A program made the translations under genes and the position numbers. Source: Bacillus sp. SJS (GTDB lineage Bacteria; Bacillota; Bacilli; Bacillales; Bacillaceae). From it: a DNA stretch of 64,000 nucleotides. Position 1 is the first letter of the stretch. Each line of letters starts with the position of its first letter. The notes under the pieces were generated by a model that did not search any database, was not told the DNA's origin, and worked only from the letters and a program-made list of their open reading frames with translations. The DNA lies in NCBI RefSeq assembly GCF_000732485.2, contig NZ_JAQV02000003.1:124001-188000 (forward strand), read 5' to 3'. Shown one piece after another: positions 17,868 through 27,958 of this stretch.

Positions 17868-18085
17868 ACAAAAAAGGACAGACTCCTCCTGATTGAATCA
17901 GAAGGCTCTGTCCTTGGCACCTGAAAGTTTACCCTGTTCGGCAGGGCTTTCCCCTTTGGCGGTTTACTGTACGTAAACTCTCTCCAGAGCTGCGTCAAAT
18001 AAGAGTCTTTTTGCCTGAGAGATTCACAAATGTTTGCTCCTTCGGCGCCGCACACAGTCTTAGTCTGCTGCGGTCTCTCCCCTTA
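17868..18085 (-). ncRNA. Tandem glycine riboswitch with terminator
   Basis: The leader on the minus strand carries two glycine aptamers in series. The first runs from about 18085 to 18010 (GGGGAGAGACCGCAGC, GCGCCGAAGGAGCAAAC, AATCTCTCAGGC). The second runs from about 17990 to 17915 (CTCTGGAGAGAG, CCGCCAAAGGGGAAAGCC, TTTCAGGTGCCAAGGAC). The expression platform follows: GGACAGAGCC can pair with the downstream GTCTGTCC (about 17876-17913) ahead of a T6 run, a terminator that glycine binding should disrupt. This is the classic gcvT operon ON switch. Confidence 0.95.
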
Positions 18086-18089
18086 TCGT

Positions 18090-18391
18090 CATCCGCACAT
18101 ATTAATCCAAATAATGGTTAAACTAATAGTCAGCCTGTATTGGCTGCTCCAATGAACGGACATGGACATAGAAGCAGACATAGGATTAACAGAAAATGAA
18201 GCATTTTGTAAACTTTCTAACTACTTATCATCCTACCATCATCTTTAAAGGAGAGCAATCCTATTTTACCTGAATAATAATTGTTCAATCTCATTAATCA
18301 TTCGCTTTTCAAGCATATACCTTATTTTTTCTTACATTTAATCCTTCTTTTAACCTAAAAGGTGAACATTAGAGAGAGTTGGTGAATTTAG
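18090..18391. other. Divergent promoter region between the gcv leader and yqhH
   Basis: About 300 bp of AT-rich sequence without a gene. It must hold the gcv promoter on the minus strand and the yqhH promoter on the plus strand. I could not place either box securely. Confidence 0.4.
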
Positions 18392-20106: not shown

Positions 20107-20901
20107 ATGAATCAACAAGAAATCCATACATTATTGGAAAGATTCTTTATAGCCAACCAATGCGAGATTACCGGAAAAACCGCCGGGGCGCTTGCCATAC
20201 AGCTGACGATTGAAATGGACAAGGAGCTTATGAATCGTCCGTTTTACTGGCATTACCTCGAAAAAACAGGCGGAGATCCAAATCCGATGAAGCTTACTCT
20301 ACTAACAGATAAAAATGAAGAAACAGACGAAGAGAAAACGGAATTTGTTCATTTAGGCTCTCCCAGATTGCATCAGATTTTCCAGTCTGCCCGCAAGCTC
20401 GGGTCTTTTGCCCGCATGTATGAAAGACCCAATTCAAACTCGGGACAGCAGCCGCTCCATCCTTGGCTTTGCATGAATATGACCGTCTCTTACCAATGTG
20501 ATATGAAAAAGGATTTCGTTTATTCCATTGGCCTCCATTTAATAAGCGGAACGATGGTTGAAAACTTTCAGGACCGTCTGAATCAGCTTCCCTTAACACC
20601 AAAGATCCCTGATTTTTGCTTCACTCTTTCCCCGCTGATTCTTCCAAAAAGCGGGATGCTGAGAATCCGCCAGCATATTGAAACTAAAATAGCAGAGGAT
20701 GACCACTCATGGGCGGATGAAGCAAGACAGAGATGGAATGCTGATTTAATGCTTCTTCAGCACTTTTATGAAGATATGGAAGAAAAGCCGGAGGTTTATG
20801 AGCTGGAGAAAGAAGCGTTAAAAGAGCTATACGAGCCGAATATCCATATTTCTGTTAATAACGGGGGTATTTTTTACCTAAATCAGCGCACAATTTTTTA
20901 A
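20107..20901 (+). CDS. yqhG: YqhG family protein
   Basis: A 264-residue soluble protein found next to yqhH in Bacillaceae. GGAGGGTGACG precedes the ATG. It has no recognisable catalytic motif. The N-terminal part (IHTLLERFFIANQC...) and the acidic helical C-terminal part are typical of the family. It is probably a partner of the YqhH ATPase, based on adjacency only. Confidence 0.85.
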   Translation: MNQQEIHTLLERFFIANQCEITGKTAGALAIQLTIEMDKELMNRPFYWHYLEKTGGDPNPMKLTLLTDKNEETDEEKTEFVHLGSPRLHQIFQSARKLGSFARMYERPNSNSGQQPLHPWLCMNMTVSYQCDMKKDFVYSIGLHLISGTMVENFQDRLNQLPLTPKIPDFCFTLSPLILPKSGMLRIRQHIETKIAEDDHSWADEARQRWNADLMLLQHFYEDMEEKPEVYELEKEALKELYEPNIHISVNNGGIFYLNQRTIF

Positions 20902-20944
20902 TTATATCGGCTGAAAAATCAAAAAATTTAATATTTTTTTCCAT

Positions 20945-20988
20945 TTCGACACAATTCAGCACCATTTTTTATTTTTCCATTCTATAAT
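20945..20988 (+). promoter_or_regulatory. sinI promoter with a Spo0A-box match
   Basis: A perfect -10 hexamer TATAAT (20983-20988) has no good -35. At 20945-20951 lies TTCGACA, the exact complement of the Spo0A recognition heptamer TGTCGAA, about 45 bp upstream of the expected transcription start. That is where Spo0A-P activates promoters with poor -35 boxes. In B. subtilis sinI is Spo0A-activated, so the call is consistent. Confidence 0.6.
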
Positions 20989-21050
20989 CATGGTACAAAG
21001 GTTTCACTGGTGAATAGAGACTATAGAATCACCTTTAACAGGGAAAAGCT

Positions 21051-21171
21051 TTTTGGTCAGACAAAGGCAAACCTGCTGAAAAGCAGGGACGCAAAGTCAC
21101 GGGTCTAAGGTTGCCGTATTGAGGCAATGATGATCGCCGGACTGCCTGAAATACATACGTATTTTAGGAGG
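21051..21171 (+). ncRNA. Cyclic di-GMP-I (GEMM) riboswitch in the sinI leader
   Basis: The conserved c-di-GMP-I blocks are in order: AAAGGCAAACC (21063-21073), a hairpin CCTGCT-GAAA-AGCAGG with the GNRA tetraloop, GGGACGCAAAG (21086-21096), CACGGGTCTAAGG, a second hairpin with stem TTGCC/GGCAA, and GATCGCCGGACTGCC at the 3' side. AGGCA (21065-21069) can pair with TGCCT (21143-21147), and TCAG (21057-21060) with CTGA (21146-21149), closing the aptamer. The same 3' strand can instead form a 10-bp hairpin (21145-21154 with 21159-21168, loop ATAC, one G-U) that covers AGG of the sinI ribosome site AGGAGG (21166-21171). There is no intrinsic terminator, so control is probably translational, with ligand predicted to turn sinI on. 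Confidence 0.88.
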
Positions 21172-21178
21172 AAATGGG

Positions 21179-21313
21179 ATGGAGAATGTAATGGTGAAAG
21201 AAGAAATGGATTTAGAATGGAAGGAGCTGATCCTGACAGCTCTCGAAATGGGAATCAGCAAAGAAGACATTCGGCATTTCCTTCAGTCTAAGCAGAATGA
21301 AAGCAGCAATTGA
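21179..21313 (+). CDS. sinI: SinI-type antirepressor (short ORF)
   Basis: A 44-residue protein, starting MENVMVKEEM and ending QNESSN. The segment from DLEWKELIL through GISKEDIRHFL matches the SinI helix-hook-helix that binds the C-terminal dimerisation region of SinR and frees its operators. Similarity to the C-termini of both SinR proteins in this window (for example DQDW...GVTKDQFREFL) supports this. AGGAGG lies 7 nt before ATG 21179. It sits between yqhG and sinR as in B. subtilis, and is preceded by a c-di-GMP riboswitch and a Spo0A-type promoter. Confidence 0.88.
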   Translation: MENVMVKEEMDLEWKELILTALEMGISKEDIRHFLQSKQNESSN

Positions 21314-21319
21314 CCTAAT

Positions 21320-21384
21320 TGTCGAAAAAATTTTGTCGATTCTGTTCGATTTACCGAAATATTCCCTTCGTTATATGCTATAAT
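21320..21384 (+). promoter_or_regulatory. sinR promoter with Spo0A-like boxes
   Basis: Extended -10 TGCTATAAT (TATAAT at 21379-21384) lies 20 bp before the sinR start. Upstream are TGTCGAA (21320-21326), an exact Spo0A heptamer, and TGTCGAT (21334-21340), a one-mismatch copy 14 bp further. This gives sinR its own promoter, separate from the sinI transcript. Confidence 0.55.
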
Positions 21385-21404
21385 ATCCGAGGGAAGGTGA
21401 TGTC

Positions 21405-21740
21405 ATGATTGGTGAACGCATACGCAAATATCGCAAAGAAAAAAATCTCTCTTTATCTGAACTAGCAGACCGGGCAGGCGTAGCAAAATCCTACCTAAGT
21501 TCAATCGAACGGAATCTTCAATCAAATCCATCGGTTCAATTTTTGGAAAAGGTTTCATCTGTGCTTGGCATTTCCGTTAATACGCTTTTGAATGGCAATA
21601 CTGAGGATGCTTATGCAAATCAGCTCGATCAGGACTGGACATCACTTGTAAAAGAAGCTATGCAGTCAGGTGTCACCAAAGATCAATTTAGGGAATTTTT
21701 GGAATTTAATAAATGGCGGATGGATCAGCCAAAAAAATAA
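21405..21740 (+). CDS. sinR: Master biofilm repressor SinR
   Basis: 111 residues. The N-terminal XRE/lambda-type HTH (about 1-65) shows RIRKYRKEK, LSELADRAGVAKSYLSSIERN and NPSVQFLEKV, nearly the same as B. subtilis SinR. The C-terminal helical region (about 75-108) for oligomerisation and SinI binding reads DQDWTSLVKEAMQSGVTKDQFREFLEF. AAGGTGATG precedes the ATG. In B. subtilis it represses the eps and tapA operons through GTTCTYT boxes. Such boxes appear at 25.8-26.1 kb in this window. Confidence 0.96.
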   Translation: MIGERIRKYRKEKNLSLSELADRAGVAKSYLSSIERNLQSNPSVQFLEKVSSVLGISVNTLLNGNTEDAYANQLDQDWTSLVKEAMQSGVTKDQFREFLEFNKWRMDQPKK

Positions 21741-21776
21741 ACGGTCAGGACTCATGTCCCGGCCGTTTATTTTTTT
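21731..21776. terminator. Bidirectional terminator between sinR and sipW
   Basis: AAATAAACGG / CCGTTTATTT (outer arms 21731-21744 and 21763-21776) encloses an inner stem GGAC / GTCC. Long A and T runs lie on both sides. It serves the convergent sinR and tasA-tapA-sipW units. Confidence 0.85.
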
Positions 21777-22308
21777 GAATATGATTCTCTTCTATACTAA
21801 GTATGGCTTGCCAGATTGTCGAAATGGAATAAATGATCATGATCAGACCGGGTATGATTGCCATTAGCGCACCGCCCTCTTTTGTTCGCGCAAAATGGCT
21901 AATGTACCCAGCATAGGGCACCGTAAATCCTGAATATTGGGCGACTACATTATCCGATTGAACCGGTGCAGAATCCTCATACTTGTTGTTATCACCTTTA
22001 GTGCGATATACAGCTTGACCCCCGCTCATCGTTTTTTGTGTGATTCTATGTGTCGCCAAATCATATTCATCCATCCAAAATGTAATGACATCACCCTTTT
22101 TAAATCTCGTCATATCCCCGCCCGTTTTTACAGCGATCACTGAGCCGGTTTGAATGCCCGGCTCCATCGAACCTGATAGGACCGTTTTTAATTGATAGCC
22201 GAAAACCTCTGGCTCTCCACCGGATGCCTTCGATGAAAAAACGGCTAAAGCAAGTCCAATTAAAATGAAAAAGAGTAAAATTGTAAACCCCCGGCTTATC
22301 AGCTTCAC
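21745..22308 (-). CDS. sipW: ER-type signal peptidase I SipW
   Basis: Processes the TasA/CalY and TapA precursors. 187 residues with an N-terminal membrane helix (about 5-25), the catalytic Ser47 in SGSMEP and His87 in ATHRIT (His replaces the Lys of prokaryotic-type peptidases), KGDVITFWMD, and a C-terminal membrane helix (about 148-172). The start overlaps the tapA stop (ATGA). It is the last gene of the tasA-tapA-sipW cluster, whereas in B. subtilis the order is tapA-sipW-tasA. Confidence 0.95.
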   Translation of the reverse strand: MKLISRGFTILLFFILIGLALAVFSSKASGGEPEVFGYQLKTVLSGSMEPGIQTGSVIAVKTGGDMTRFKKGDVITFWMDEYDLATHRITQKTMSGGQAVYRTKGDNNKYEDSAPVQSDNVVAQYSGFTVPYAGYISHFARTKEGGALMAIIPGLIMIIYSISTIWQAILSIEENHIQKNKRPGHES

Positions 22309-23176: not shown

Positions 23177-23773
23177 TTATAGCTCCTGACCGTCGCCTTG
23201 ACGTCCGTCAAATGTCCATTTAAGCTGGAGAGAATCTCCTTGGAATTGGTTTTGATCTTCGCCATTATCAACAAATTCAAATTGAACAAACAGATCATCC
23301 GTTGTACCAGCTTTTAGTCCCTTTTTCTTTTCAAAAAGCGGGGTAAAGACATTGCTTGCAACTGCGTTTGGATCCATATCCTTCAGCTCAGCAAGTGTCG
23401 TGCTGTAAATAACATCGTTAAGCTTGTCCGCATTATAAAGAAAGTTCACTTTGATATGGCTTCCTAAATCCTCAGTATTTGAAGGCTCGCCCTCTTTGTT
23501 CGTTATCGTGTATTCAGTCGTCAGCAATACTTTTTTAATATCCACTGTCCCGTCATTTTGAAGCTTAAACGTGCGGTTCATCCAATCACCAGGCTTCATA
23601 TCCTTCACATTCACAATCTCAGTCGGAACCGCGTTTAAATCAAGCGTTCCTGCTGCAAAAGAGCTTGCCGCTTCTGCTTTATCATTGAAATATGCATACG
23701 TACCCCCGCCGACCAATGATAATCCAAGTGCCGCAGATGCAATACCCAATCCTAATTTTGTCTTGATCCCCAT
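23177..23773 (-). CDS. tasA: TasA/CalY-family major matrix fibre protein (copy 1)
   Basis: 198-residue precursor of the TasA/camelysin (M73) family. The signal peptide MGIKTKLGLGIASAALGLSL continues into VGGGTYAYFND, the family hallmark recognised by SipW, with cleavage probably after KAEA. The mature beta-sandwich has FAAGTLDLN, MKPGDWMNRTFKLQNDG, LLTTEYTI, and DDLFVQFEFVDNGEDQNQFQGDSLQLKWTF in parts. AGGAGG lies 8 nt before ATG 23773, and upstream codons to 23833 are excluded. It forms amyloid-like fibres in related bacteria. About 1.3 kb upstream lies a close paralogue. Confidence 0.93.
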   Translation of the reverse strand: MGIKTKLGLGIASAALGLSLVGGGTYAYFNDKAEAASSFAAGTLDLNAVPTEIVNVKDMKPGDWMNRTFKLQNDGTVDIKKVLLTTEYTITNKEGEPSNTEDLGSHIKVNFLYNADKLNDVIYSTTLAELKDMDPNAVASNVFTPLFEKKKGLKAGTTDDLFVQFEFVDNGEDQNQFQGDSLQLKWTFDGRQGDGQEL

Positions 23774-24191
23774 TTTACATTCCTCCTGATTTTTCTGTGT
23801 GTATGTGAACTCTTTATGAATAAAGAGGCTCAACCATTCTGTTTTGCATCATTATAATTTTAAATATTCCGACAAATTTAAATCCAGGAAGGACTTTTTC
23901 CATAGGTAACAGATTATGTACAAATTGTTATAAACTTCTTCCTGCCTGCCTCCTTTAGTTTAGCAGTCGCCTAAATTCGGCAAAAGGTTCTTTGTACCAA
24001 TATATCGACCCATCCCTTTGTACGATTTTTCCAGAAAAAGCATCTGGATCCACATAAGAAGTCCTTGCAAACCGGGCTTTTCCCAAATCTCCTCCTTTTC
24101 ACCCTGCACCTTTCTATCCGGGACATTAGACACTTCTTGCAGCCTGAGCCAAAATATACAAAAAAACCTCGAGCAAGCTCCAGGTTGGCTG
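23774..24191 (-). promoter_or_regulatory. tasA upstream region
   Basis: About 420 bp without a gene. On the minus strand a TATAAT lies about 75 bp before the tasA start. An inverted repeat CTCTTTA (23810-23816) / TAAAGAG (23821-23827) lies in the leader. It resembles half of a SinR-type element but has no exact GTTCTYT box. No other structure was recognised. Confidence 0.4.
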
Positions 24192-25042: not shown

Positions 25043-25636
25043 TTACAGCTCTTCGCCTTTACCGTGACGTCCTTCAAATTTCCATTTAAGAGTAACTGAA
25101 TCACCCTGAAACTCATTTTGCTCTTCATTGTTATCAACAAACTCAAATTGAACAAATAGATCATCCGTTGTTCCTGCTTTTAGACCCTTTCTTTCCATTA
25201 GAGGTGTAAATACATTTTTATCAATCACATTAGGGTCCTCGTCCTTTAATTCATCAAGGGTTGTGCTATAAATAACATCATTTAGTTTGTCTGCATTCCA
25301 TAAGAAATTAACTCTGATGGATTTGCCCAAATCATTTACATTTACGGCAGCACCAGCTTTGTTTGTCACCGTATACTCAGTAGTCAGTAATACCTTTTTA
25401 ATATCTAAAGTACCGCTGTTTACCAATTTAAAAGCACGATCCATTGTGTCACCCGGCTTGATGTTCTTCACATCAATAATCGTTTCAGGATTTACATTTA
25501 AATCAAGCGTACCTGCTGCAAACGATGATGCTGCCTCTGCAGTATCATTAAAATAGGCATATGTACCGCCGCCAATTAAGGAAAAACCAAGCGCTGCTGA
25601 TGCCAGCCCTAAACCTAATTTTTTCTTTACTCCCAT
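25043..25636 (-). CDS. calY: TasA/CalY-family matrix protein (copy 2)
   Basis: 197 residues, plainly paralogous to the protein at 23177-23773 over its whole length, including signal region GLGLASAALGFSLIGGGTYAYF and the tail DDLFVQFEFVDNNEEQNEF. It has an AGGGGGC ribosome site. It is transcribed away from the sinR-like/eps operon, sharing an upstream region with several SinR-type boxes. It likely is a second fibre or camelysin-type protein processed by the intact SipW, since its own sipW neighbour is a remnant. Confidence 0.92.
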   Translation of the reverse strand: MGVKKKLGLGLASAALGFSLIGGGTYAYFNDTAEAASSFAAGTLDLNVNPETIIDVKNIKPGDTMDRAFKLVNSGTLDIKKVLLTTEYTVTNKAGAAVNVNDLGKSIRVNFLWNADKLNDVIYSTTLDELKDEDPNVIDKNVFTPLMERKGLKAGTTDDLFVQFEFVDNNEEQNEFQGDSVTLKWKFEGRHGKGEEL

Positions 25637-26182: not shown

Positions 26183-26521
26183 ATGACTTTTGCAGGAAAA
26201 AAAATAAGGGAGATTAGAAGGCAAAGGGGCTTTTCCCTGACTGAGCTCGCGGATCAGGCAGGTGTATCCAAATCTTATTTAAGCTACATAGAACGAGATG
26301 TACAAAAGAACCCCAGCTTGCATTTCCTAACAAAAATTGCTGAAAATCTTGGTGTTGAGGTTAAGGACCTAATAGGGGAACAGAATAACCAAACCAGGCT
26401 TGAACAGCTTGATCCAGAATGGGAAGATCTTTTAAAAACAGCGATAAGGAATGGATTAAGCAAAGAGGATTTTAAGCTTTTTACCGACTATATCCAGTTC
26501 AGTAAAAAGCACAGCAAATAA
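26183..26521 (+). CDS. SinR-like repressor paralogue
   Basis: 112 residues. The XRE HTH (about 1-65) has GFSLTELADQAGVSKSYLSYIERD and NPSLHFLTKIAENLGV, close to SinR at 21405. The C-terminal region DPEWEDLLKTAIRNGLSKEDFKLFTDYI matches the SinR/SinI interaction helices. It is shorter than B. subtilis SlrR and lacks that protein's extra C-terminal domain. AAGGAG precedes the ATG. No terminator separates it from the exopolysaccharide genes 63 bp downstream, so it is probably the first gene of that operon and autoregulated through the upstream boxes. Confidence 0.88.
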   Translation: MTFAGKKIREIRRQRGFSLTELADQAGVSKSYLSYIERDVQKNPSLHFLTKIAENLGVEVKDLIGEQNNQTRLEQLDPEWEDLLKTAIRNGLSKEDFKLFTDYIQFSKKHSK

Positions 26522-26584: not shown

Positions 26585-27958
26585 ATGGAAAAAACGTTTG
26601 AGATTAAAGATCTGCTTAACATCCTCAGGAAGAATAAAATTCTAATAACGTCCATACCGTTTGTATGCCTGCTGATTGGATTTATTTATACGTATTTCAT
26701 TGCAAGTCCAATATACGAATCGAAAACGGATTTGCTCGTAAATACCACCCCAACAGCAAACACTGCCGAACCTGTATCACCTCTGGAAATAGACGCAAGT
26801 CTAAAACTCATTGAAACTTATCAATATATATTAAAGAGCCAAAGAATGGCCGATCTGGTTATTAAGGATCTGGATGGACTTCTTACGGAAGATGAATTTT
26901 TAGACAATGTAAAGGCAGAAAGTAACGGAAATTCTCAAATCATCTCTATTATTGTTGAAAACAAAAACCCAGATGATGCAGCCTTAATTGCGAACAAAAC
27001 AGCGGTCATTTTTCAATCAGAAATAAAAAAACTGATGAAGATTGAGAACGTAAACATTTTAACAATAGCAACCCCTTATTCATCTACTTCTAAACCCATT
27101 TTGCTCTTTAATCTATTGCTATCTTTTGCAGCAGGTTTAATTTTGGCCACCATATTTGTGCTTATTAAAGAACTTAAGAACAAAAAATTCGAAAGCAAAA
27201 AAGGCATCACTGATTTATTAGGAATCCCTTACCTGGGAGAGATTCCAGCCATTATTCCACAAGGCCCGACAAATAAATATTTAGATGAGCGTTACAATAA
27301 ATTAGTTGCCCATACTGAACCTCATTCATCTTCTTCTGAAGCATACCGGTCCGTAAGGGCTAATTTAGATATTCTGCGGCAGTCTAAGCAGCCAGTCACC
27401 ATTCTTGTAACAAGTACCTCTGCAGGAGATGGTAAGTCATTGACCTGTGGAAATCTTGCGGTCACATTGGCTAAGGACAATAAAAAAGTGGTTTTTGTAG
27501 ATTCAGATATGCGAAAGCCTAATGGACATTCACTTTTTAACTTGCATAACCGATGCGGACTAACAAATTATTTAACAGGGTTTTCAAGTTCAGATGAGAT
27601 TATTCAGTCTACCGCAATCCCAAAATTAAGTTTTATATCTGCTGGTCCAATTTCACCTAACCCACACGAGCTGATCATATCAAAGAAGATGGATCTACTC
27701 ATAGATAGATTAAAACAAAAGTTTGACGTTATTTTATTCGACAGCTCCCCCCTTCTGGTATCAGATTCAATCTTACTCTCTGGAAAAATGGATGGCTGCA
27801 TCTATGTTCTTAATGCCCGTAAAACAAATAGGGATGATGCAAACGAAAAAATAGAGCTTCTGAAAAGAAGTTCAAATGAACTAATAGGGGCTATTTTAAA
27901 CGAAAAGAAAACTCATAAAAGCAATCCCCACTATTATTACGGAGGTTATATGGGATGA
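26585..27958 (+). CDS. Polysaccharide co-polymerase/BY-kinase fusion
   Basis: 457 residues joining two usually separate proteins. Residues about 1-200 are a Wzz-type chain-length regulator with membrane helices near 20-40 and 175-195. Residues about 240-457 are a bacterial tyrosine kinase with Walker A AGDGKS (about 280), Walker A' VVFVDSDMRKP (about 302), Walker B VILFDSSP (about 380) and a C-terminal tyrosine cluster YYYGGYMG, the autophosphorylation site. It controls export and length of the polysaccharide. In B. subtilis the two parts are separate (EpsA/EpsB). Overlaps the next gene by 4 nt. Confidence 0.93.
   Translation: MEKTFEIKDLLNILRKNKILITSIPFVCLLIGFIYTYFIASPIYESKTDLLVNTTPTANTAEPVSPLEIDASLKLIETYQYILKSQRMADLVIKDLDGLLTEDEFLDNVKAESNGNSQIISIIVENKNPDDAALIANKTAVIFQSEIKKLMKIENVNILTIATPYSSTSKPILLFNLLLSFAAGLILATIFVLIKELKNKKFESKKGITDLLGIPYLGEIPAIIPQGPTNKYLDERYNKLVAHTEPHSSSSEAYRSVRANLDILRQSKQPVTILVTSTSAGDGKSLTCGNLAVTLAKDNKKVVFVDSDMRKPNGHSLFNLHNRCGLTNYLTGFSSSDEIIQSTAIPKLSFISAGPISPNPHELIISKKMDLLIDRLKQKFDVILFDSSPLLVSDSILLSGKMDGCIYVLNARKTNRDDANEKIELLKRSSNELIGAILNEKKTHKSNPHYYYGGYMG

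Follow-up and report, generated by a model that had tools for sequence, protein, structure and literature searches.

A putative translational c-di-GMP riboswitch in the leader of the anti-repressor gene sinI in Bacillaceae

The sinI leader and its aptamer

The stretch of DNA analysed here (the window; 64,000 nucleotides from Bacillus sp. SJS) carries along positions 20945-21740 of its plus strand, in this order, a TTCGACA box, a TATAAT hexamer, a c-di-GMP-I aptamer, a hairpin over a ribosome site, sinI and sinR. The product of sinI (21179-21313, 44 amino acids) is identified as the SinI anti-repressor, as it matches the SinI domain above cut-off (Pfam PF08671, 46.6 versus 31.4 bits), has no DNA-binding domain and is encoded next to sinR. 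The latter (21405-21740) encodes a protein of 111 amino acids with HTH_3 and SinI domains, which matches the solved SinR structure 1b0n_A with an E-value of 5.4e-44. The ribosome site of sinI reads AGGAGG (21166-21171), and 28 nt lie between the end of the aptamer and the sinI start. A gene with a Pfam YqhG match is located directly upstream of the leader, giving the order yqhG-sinI-sinR that we take to be that of B. subtilis. The TATAAT (20983-20988), read from the sequence, is the probable -10 element of the sinI promoter and is not among the promoter-like sites returned by a consensus promoter scan; the TTCGACA (20945-20951), found by regular expression, resembles what we take to be the Spo0A-box consensus.

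The first-pass annotation had placed a c-di-GMP-I aptamer directly before the 44-codon sinI gene, and the covariance search that it proposed bears this out, with a cmscan score for RF01051 of 78.3 bits against a cut-off of 35. The model of the c-di-GMP-I-GGC variant, RF03167, also scores above its cut-off (73.3 versus 59 bits, E 1.8e-15) with a match at 21057-21150, from which the RF01051 match is offset by one base. However, the residue that we presume to be meant by the name -GGC, a G after the conserved GC, is absent: the window has GACGCAAA where the consensus has GACGCGAA. The variant was rejected for this reason and the aptamer is therefore filed under RF01051. The window likewise has G21066 in place of the A at position 20 that we take to be the mark of GEMM-Ib, the 3',3'-cGAMP riboswitch group.

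The aptamer is built from three helices, P1 (21057-21060 with 21146-21149), P2 (21072-21077 with 21082-21087) and P3 (21095-21105 with 21132-21143). The closing strand had initially been given as 21143-21149; its overlap with the downstream hairpin stands, whereas the P1 3' strand proper is confined to 21146-21149, position 21143 being part of P3 and 21144-21145 the joint between P3 and P1. In an alignment of 40 leaders of relatives, two-sided base changes are found in five of the six P2 pairs and in four of ten P3 pairs; covariation of P1 was left uncounted, since the varying length of the P1-P2 joint puts some of its rows out of register. On the cmscan alignment, G21066, A21093 and C21145 stand at the positions of G20, A47 and C92 (Vc2 numbering), which we take to be ligand-site residues. 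C21145 is invariant across all 40 rows, and its equivalent C92 presumably contacts the ligand in the solved aptamer.

Aptamers before sinI elsewhere show some variation. One (L269, 349-463) has an A at the G20 position, which might change its choice of ligand, and six others (L171, L198, L202, L236, L250 and L278) contain long insertions, apparently in P3. Further c-di-GMP-I copies in the family (L005, L006, L010, L011, L014, L019 and L020) precede secreted-looking proteins that contain STWLWDT. The genome of the window itself (4.15 Mb in 36 contigs) contains three RF01051 matches over cut-off, together with 12 GGDEF and seven EAL domain matches.

Other features of the window touch on the same subject. 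A second SinR-like protein is encoded at 26183-26521, with an HTH domain and a SinI domain just above cut-off, and is followed directly by a Wzz/AAA gene at 26585; this region is probably an eps cluster. Two camelysin-family genes recognised by Pfam lie on the minus strand (23177-23833 and 25043-25636), whose products we take to be TasA-like, and a nearby protein without Pfam match (21745-22308) is presumably SipW-like. A glycine riboswitch (RF00504, 68.6 bits) is found at 17993-18092 of the minus strand, 5' of a gene that we take to be gcvT-like.

The ribosome-site hairpin

A hairpin of ten base pairs, including one G-U pair (G21148-U21165), can form between 21145-21154 and 21159-21168, exactly as the first-pass annotation had described it, and would mask the first AGG (21166-21168) of the ribosome site. 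The segment 21145-21181 folds at -11.1 kcal/mol as compared to a mean of -3.0 for shuffled sequences (z -5.2), none of 200 shuffles being as stable. Folded without constraint, 21050-21181 is predicted to form P2, P3 and the hairpin and to leave P1 open. C21145 is the first base of the hairpin, and it and the next four bases, which form the P1 3' strand, all lie inside the 5' arm. Since the AGG thus pairs with the P1 3' strand and C21145, ligand binding and masking would compete. The predicted folds hence display the hallmark of a translational ON switch, in which opening of P1 frees the aptamer-closing strand to pair with the ribosome site, and the competition fits such a switch.

If the fold is barred from pairs incompatible with the aptamer, the predicted probability of 21166-21168 being unpaired rises from 0.00-0.01 to 0.60-0.99; in this fold positions 21166-21170 are all open at 0.60-0.99 and 21171 at 0.43. 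The ensemble with the aptamer imposed is about 9.5 kcal/mol weaker before any ligand energy is added, and binding would therefore have to precede synthesis of the 3' arm. RNA synthesis finishes the aptamer at 21149, before it reaches the 3' arm (21159-21168), and the choice between the two states thus probably falls during transcription.

The same link between P1 and the ribosome site recurs in the leaders of relatives described below. At least 2 bp connect the P1 3' strand to the site in all 34 leaders of the family and in 32 of 35 leaders from the wider order (the exceptions being L342, L376 and L378), with the C92 position set by hand in ten leaders for this test and for that of openness. 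The minimum free energy is better than that of at least 95% of shuffles in 34/34 family and 24/35 order-level leaders. In contrast, the mean openness of the whole ribosome site in the OFF fold (0.48 and 0.50) hardly differs from that of shuffles (0.53 and 0.54) and falls into the lowest tenth of shuffles in only 4 of 35 and 0 of 34 leaders, because only half of the site is masked; it was rejected as proof of masking, and helix stability and the P1-to-site link are the better evidence. One leader (L132), whose ribosome site reads GGGGGA, was omitted from the alignment and the folding tests. The hairpin shows no two-sided base change in the 40-row alignment, 7 of its 10 pairs being invariant and 3 changed on one side, in a set of which 21 rows came from a search with the hairpin pattern and the other 19 were excised from loci by a hairpin regular expression.

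Distribution of aptamer and hairpin

YqhG is encoded in all but one of the family's 80 genomes, and the 79 loci downstream of it were all examined. Outside a genus labelled g2, a c-di-GMP-I match above cut-off precedes sinI in 34 of 35 loci, which include the genome of the window and a second genome of its species. Both hairpin arms are present in all 34 aptamer-bearing leaders, so that the predicted alternation between aptamer and hairpin is conserved in the relatives; the sole exception, L121, has neither aptamer nor hairpin. Among 31 aptamer loci of the family that were inspected, 13 precede sinI, and the other 18 all lack this hairpin sequence.

Beyond the family, a search of the order with a SinI alignment gave SinI-domain matches in 304 of 397 genomes, a count to which SinR can contribute too. 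From the best-scoring matches 60 loci in 58 genomes were picked by hand, one of which (L340) is a SinR-like fragment; the sample leans to hairpin bearers because the alignment was built from hairpin-bearing genes. A c-di-GMP-I match above cut-off lies on the sinI strand in 35 of these 60 loci, from 19 families, one of them (L359), weak at 38.7 bits and located some 150 nt 5' of the hairpin, being perhaps misplaced. Counting the family of the window and a further one (f32; L138 and L155, identified by regular expression and by eye), sinI aptamers occur in 21 families. The long hairpin is present in 21 of the 35 order-level leaders and not in the other 14, and among the 25 loci without c-di-GMP-I its 3' arm is found in one (L384). 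In diverged families shorter hairpins replace the long form (CUCC-GGAG in L374 and L377, CCUC-GGGG in L346 and L364) and, judged by eye, appear to follow the same masking logic. One genome (G381) has a c-di-GMP-II aptamer, of unrelated fold, 5' of a SinI open reading frame (L353, 305-388), which suggests independent recruitment of c-di-GMP sensing to SinI; this leader does not fold stably by itself (z 0.94).

Two further searches extend this picture. Of 40 loci just after YqhG in other families, three have SinI and SinR matches (phmmer), and all three contain the aptamer core. The hairpin pattern alone, searched in a collection of 84,980 genomes, gave at least 118 stretches, and in all 118 matches listed a SinI-like open reading frame begins 2-12 nt beyond the hairpin (117 called by the motif D.[ED]W, L280 by eye). 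A loose regular expression recovers the aptamer core from 97 of the 118 matches listed; the other 21 comprise ten with an aptamer recognised by eye, nine from the pumilus group without one, and two ambiguous ones (L178 and L244). Taken together, the arrangement of aptamer and hairpin before sinI is conserved in the family and in many relatives.

The exception is g2, which we take to include the subtilis and pumilus groups. A SinI of g2 is nearly identical to the solved SinI 1b0n_B, whose source organism is our basis for placing the subtilis group here, and the names subtilis-, pumilus- and licheniformis-like are used for its leaders in the same sense. No c-di-GMP match was detected in any of the 44 g2 leaders (0/5 at cut-off and 0/39 down to E 0.5). 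Yet the 3' arm of the hairpin, GTATTTT[AG]GG, is kept in 43 of them and both arms in 42; in L125 neither arm and no separate sinI open reading frame was found. This suggests that the sensor was lost in g2 and the lock retained. The spacing from box to TATAAT is 38 nt in the window and 37-38 nt in those g2 leaders in which TATAAT was found, and the proposed link of sinI to Spo0A rests on the box and this spacing. TCGACA stands at the promoter position in 34/34 aptamer leaders of the family, the full TTCGACA in only five. The 43 hairpin-bearing g2 leaders include 26 with TTCGACA and 17 without, all of these pumilus-like. The pumilus-like leaders (L126 and L311-L326) show neither box nor TATAAT where searched and have a conserved leader of their own of about 100 nt 5' of the retained hairpin.

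Box and hairpin are 193-227 nt apart (median 216.5) in leaders with the aptamer, compared with 104-161 nt in g2 leaders with the box. In subtilis-like leaders the 18 nt 5' of the hairpin resemble the 3' end of the aptamer and match an aptamer leader at 11-14 positions, a match reached by 0-34 of 2000 shuffles, uncorrected for several tests. As the corresponding matches are low in pumilus-like (9-10/18) and licheniformis-like leaders (8-11/18), we claim a relic only for the subtilis clade. A SinR tree was built from 29 of 32 chosen rows (L094, L103 and L120 yielded no SinR by regular expression); in it the 14 g2 rows fall on one side of a branch (support 100/99) and the aptamer labels require two changes. 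The tree is short, with long outgroup branches and a rooting that is not firm, which leaves room for gain of the aptamer instead of loss; given an aptamer in 20 further families, two losses, one in g2 and one in L121, make the simpler reading. We give about even odds to the view that SinI translation was already under c-di-GMP control in the ancestor of the order and that the subtilis group lost the sensor and kept promoter and lock.

Proposed control of SinI translation

Aptamer, hairpin, their overlap, the gene order and the conservation of the arrangement are observed, and from them we read the sinI leader as a translational ON riboswitch for c-di-GMP (probability about 0.8), the binding, its direction and strength and the effect on biofilm formation being inferred. 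In the absence of ligand, the ribosome site would be held in the ten-pair hairpin by C21145 and the P1 3' strand, and sinI would be poorly translated. If c-di-GMP bound during RNA synthesis, C21145 would hold the ligand and P1 would close, upon which the hairpin would lose its lower half and the ribosome site would open. SinI would then rise and the SinR targets, eps and matrix genes, would be freed. The leader would thereby act as an AND gate, with transcription probably set by phosphorylated Spo0A and translation by c-di-GMP.

But could the hairpin not be a constitutive brake, or one worked by another factor, with the aptamer mainly affecting transcription or RNA stability? The 42 of 44 g2 leaders that keep both arms with no detected aptamer indicate that the hairpin may indeed have a use of its own. 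The reading is nevertheless unlikely, as C21145 and the P1 strand lie within the hairpin and as, among the 60 order-level loci, the long hairpin accompanies 21 of 35 aptamers and its 3' arm only one of 25 leaders without c-di-GMP-I. Moreover, no terminator-like site was found on the plus strand of 20900-21420, the single site there being on the minus strand; this speaks against an aptamer acting on transcription, and attenuation was rejected accordingly. It is also rather improbable that c-di-GMP is sensed by an OFF switch in which the start codon becomes hidden by another structure once ligand is bound. The AUG (21179-21181) is predicted to be paired (0.04-0.08 unpaired) when the aptamer is imposed, but this pairing uses sequence after AGGAGG that varies among relatives, whereas the hairpin whose opening we propose is conserved, and the P1-to-site link in 66 of 69 leaders fits an ON switch. 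Finally, we consider it very improbable that the ligand is 3',3'-cGAMP or another cyclic dinucleotide, for the better E-value of the -GGC model in cmscan is set against the G, A and C at the positions of G20, A47 and C92, the higher bit score of canonical RF01051 (78.3 versus 73.3) and the numerous GGDEF and EAL domains of the genome, even if the accessible part of PMC9262584 describes G20 as contributing to selectivity without being a hard filter.

The first-pass annotation had supposed the arrangement to be undescribed for sinI, which is wrong in part: the riboswitches that a 2015 article (PMC4342826) lists for RNA-seq-mapped 5' leaders of Bacillus methanolicus MGA3 include an entry (c-di-GMP)-sinI, BMMGA3_08510. 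Like the window, MGA3 has, by this description, a putative c-di-GMP riboswitch in its mapped sinI leader; in the accessible part of that article the entry is a bare listing without platform, mechanism, conservation or loss. Masking mechanism, breadth and probable loss in relatives of B. subtilis were not found in the literature searched, which covered few subscription papers. Thus, a c-di-GMP riboswitch before sinI has already been listed, and its reach and evolutionary history look new. With the ON and OFF types of RF01051 riboswitches, as far as the accessible part of PMC9262584 describes them, the window shares the P1-P2-P3 fold, the GAAA loop and the expected contact residues; it differs in that C92 and the 3' strand of P1 are also the strand opposite the ribosome site in a conserved sinI hairpin. 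The c-di-GMP 'on' riboswitch of Bacillus thuringiensis cbpA is likewise tied to a sessile trait in Bacillus, but acts, according to the accessible parts of PMC7793685 and PMC7423583, on one adhesin, whereas the riboswitch of the window has as its target an anti-repressor that stands over the matrix regulon. In B. thuringiensis, sinI and spo0A transcripts rose on an array when the cyclase CdgF was overexpressed, an account that, in its accessible part, invokes no sinI riboswitch (PMC7793685). According to the accessible part of PMC5422440, c-di-GMP does affect B. subtilis biofilms: it works on an exopolymer by way of YdaK, and maturation was disturbed when cyclase activity was excessive.

SinI is the point at which signals enter the SinR biofilm switch. 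Should many Bacillaceae depend on c-di-GMP to translate sinI, a single short transcript would bring together the Spo0A pathway and the second messenger of sessility, with the model organism B. subtilis as the exception. The Spo0A-SinI-SinR switch of B. subtilis, the system for comparison, has the same genes, the same order and a Spo0A-like promoter, and differs in that no aptamer was detected in the leaders of its group. In B. subtilis c-di-GMP is only loosely tied to the SinR-controlled matrix, a known puzzle that the sinI leader makes directly testable. If the loss reading is true, the best-studied biofilm model would carry a fossil riboswitch in its sinI leader. This could account for the limited hold of c-di-GMP on the SinR-controlled matrix there, and loss of the sensor may have left the hairpin of the subtilis group open to another input.
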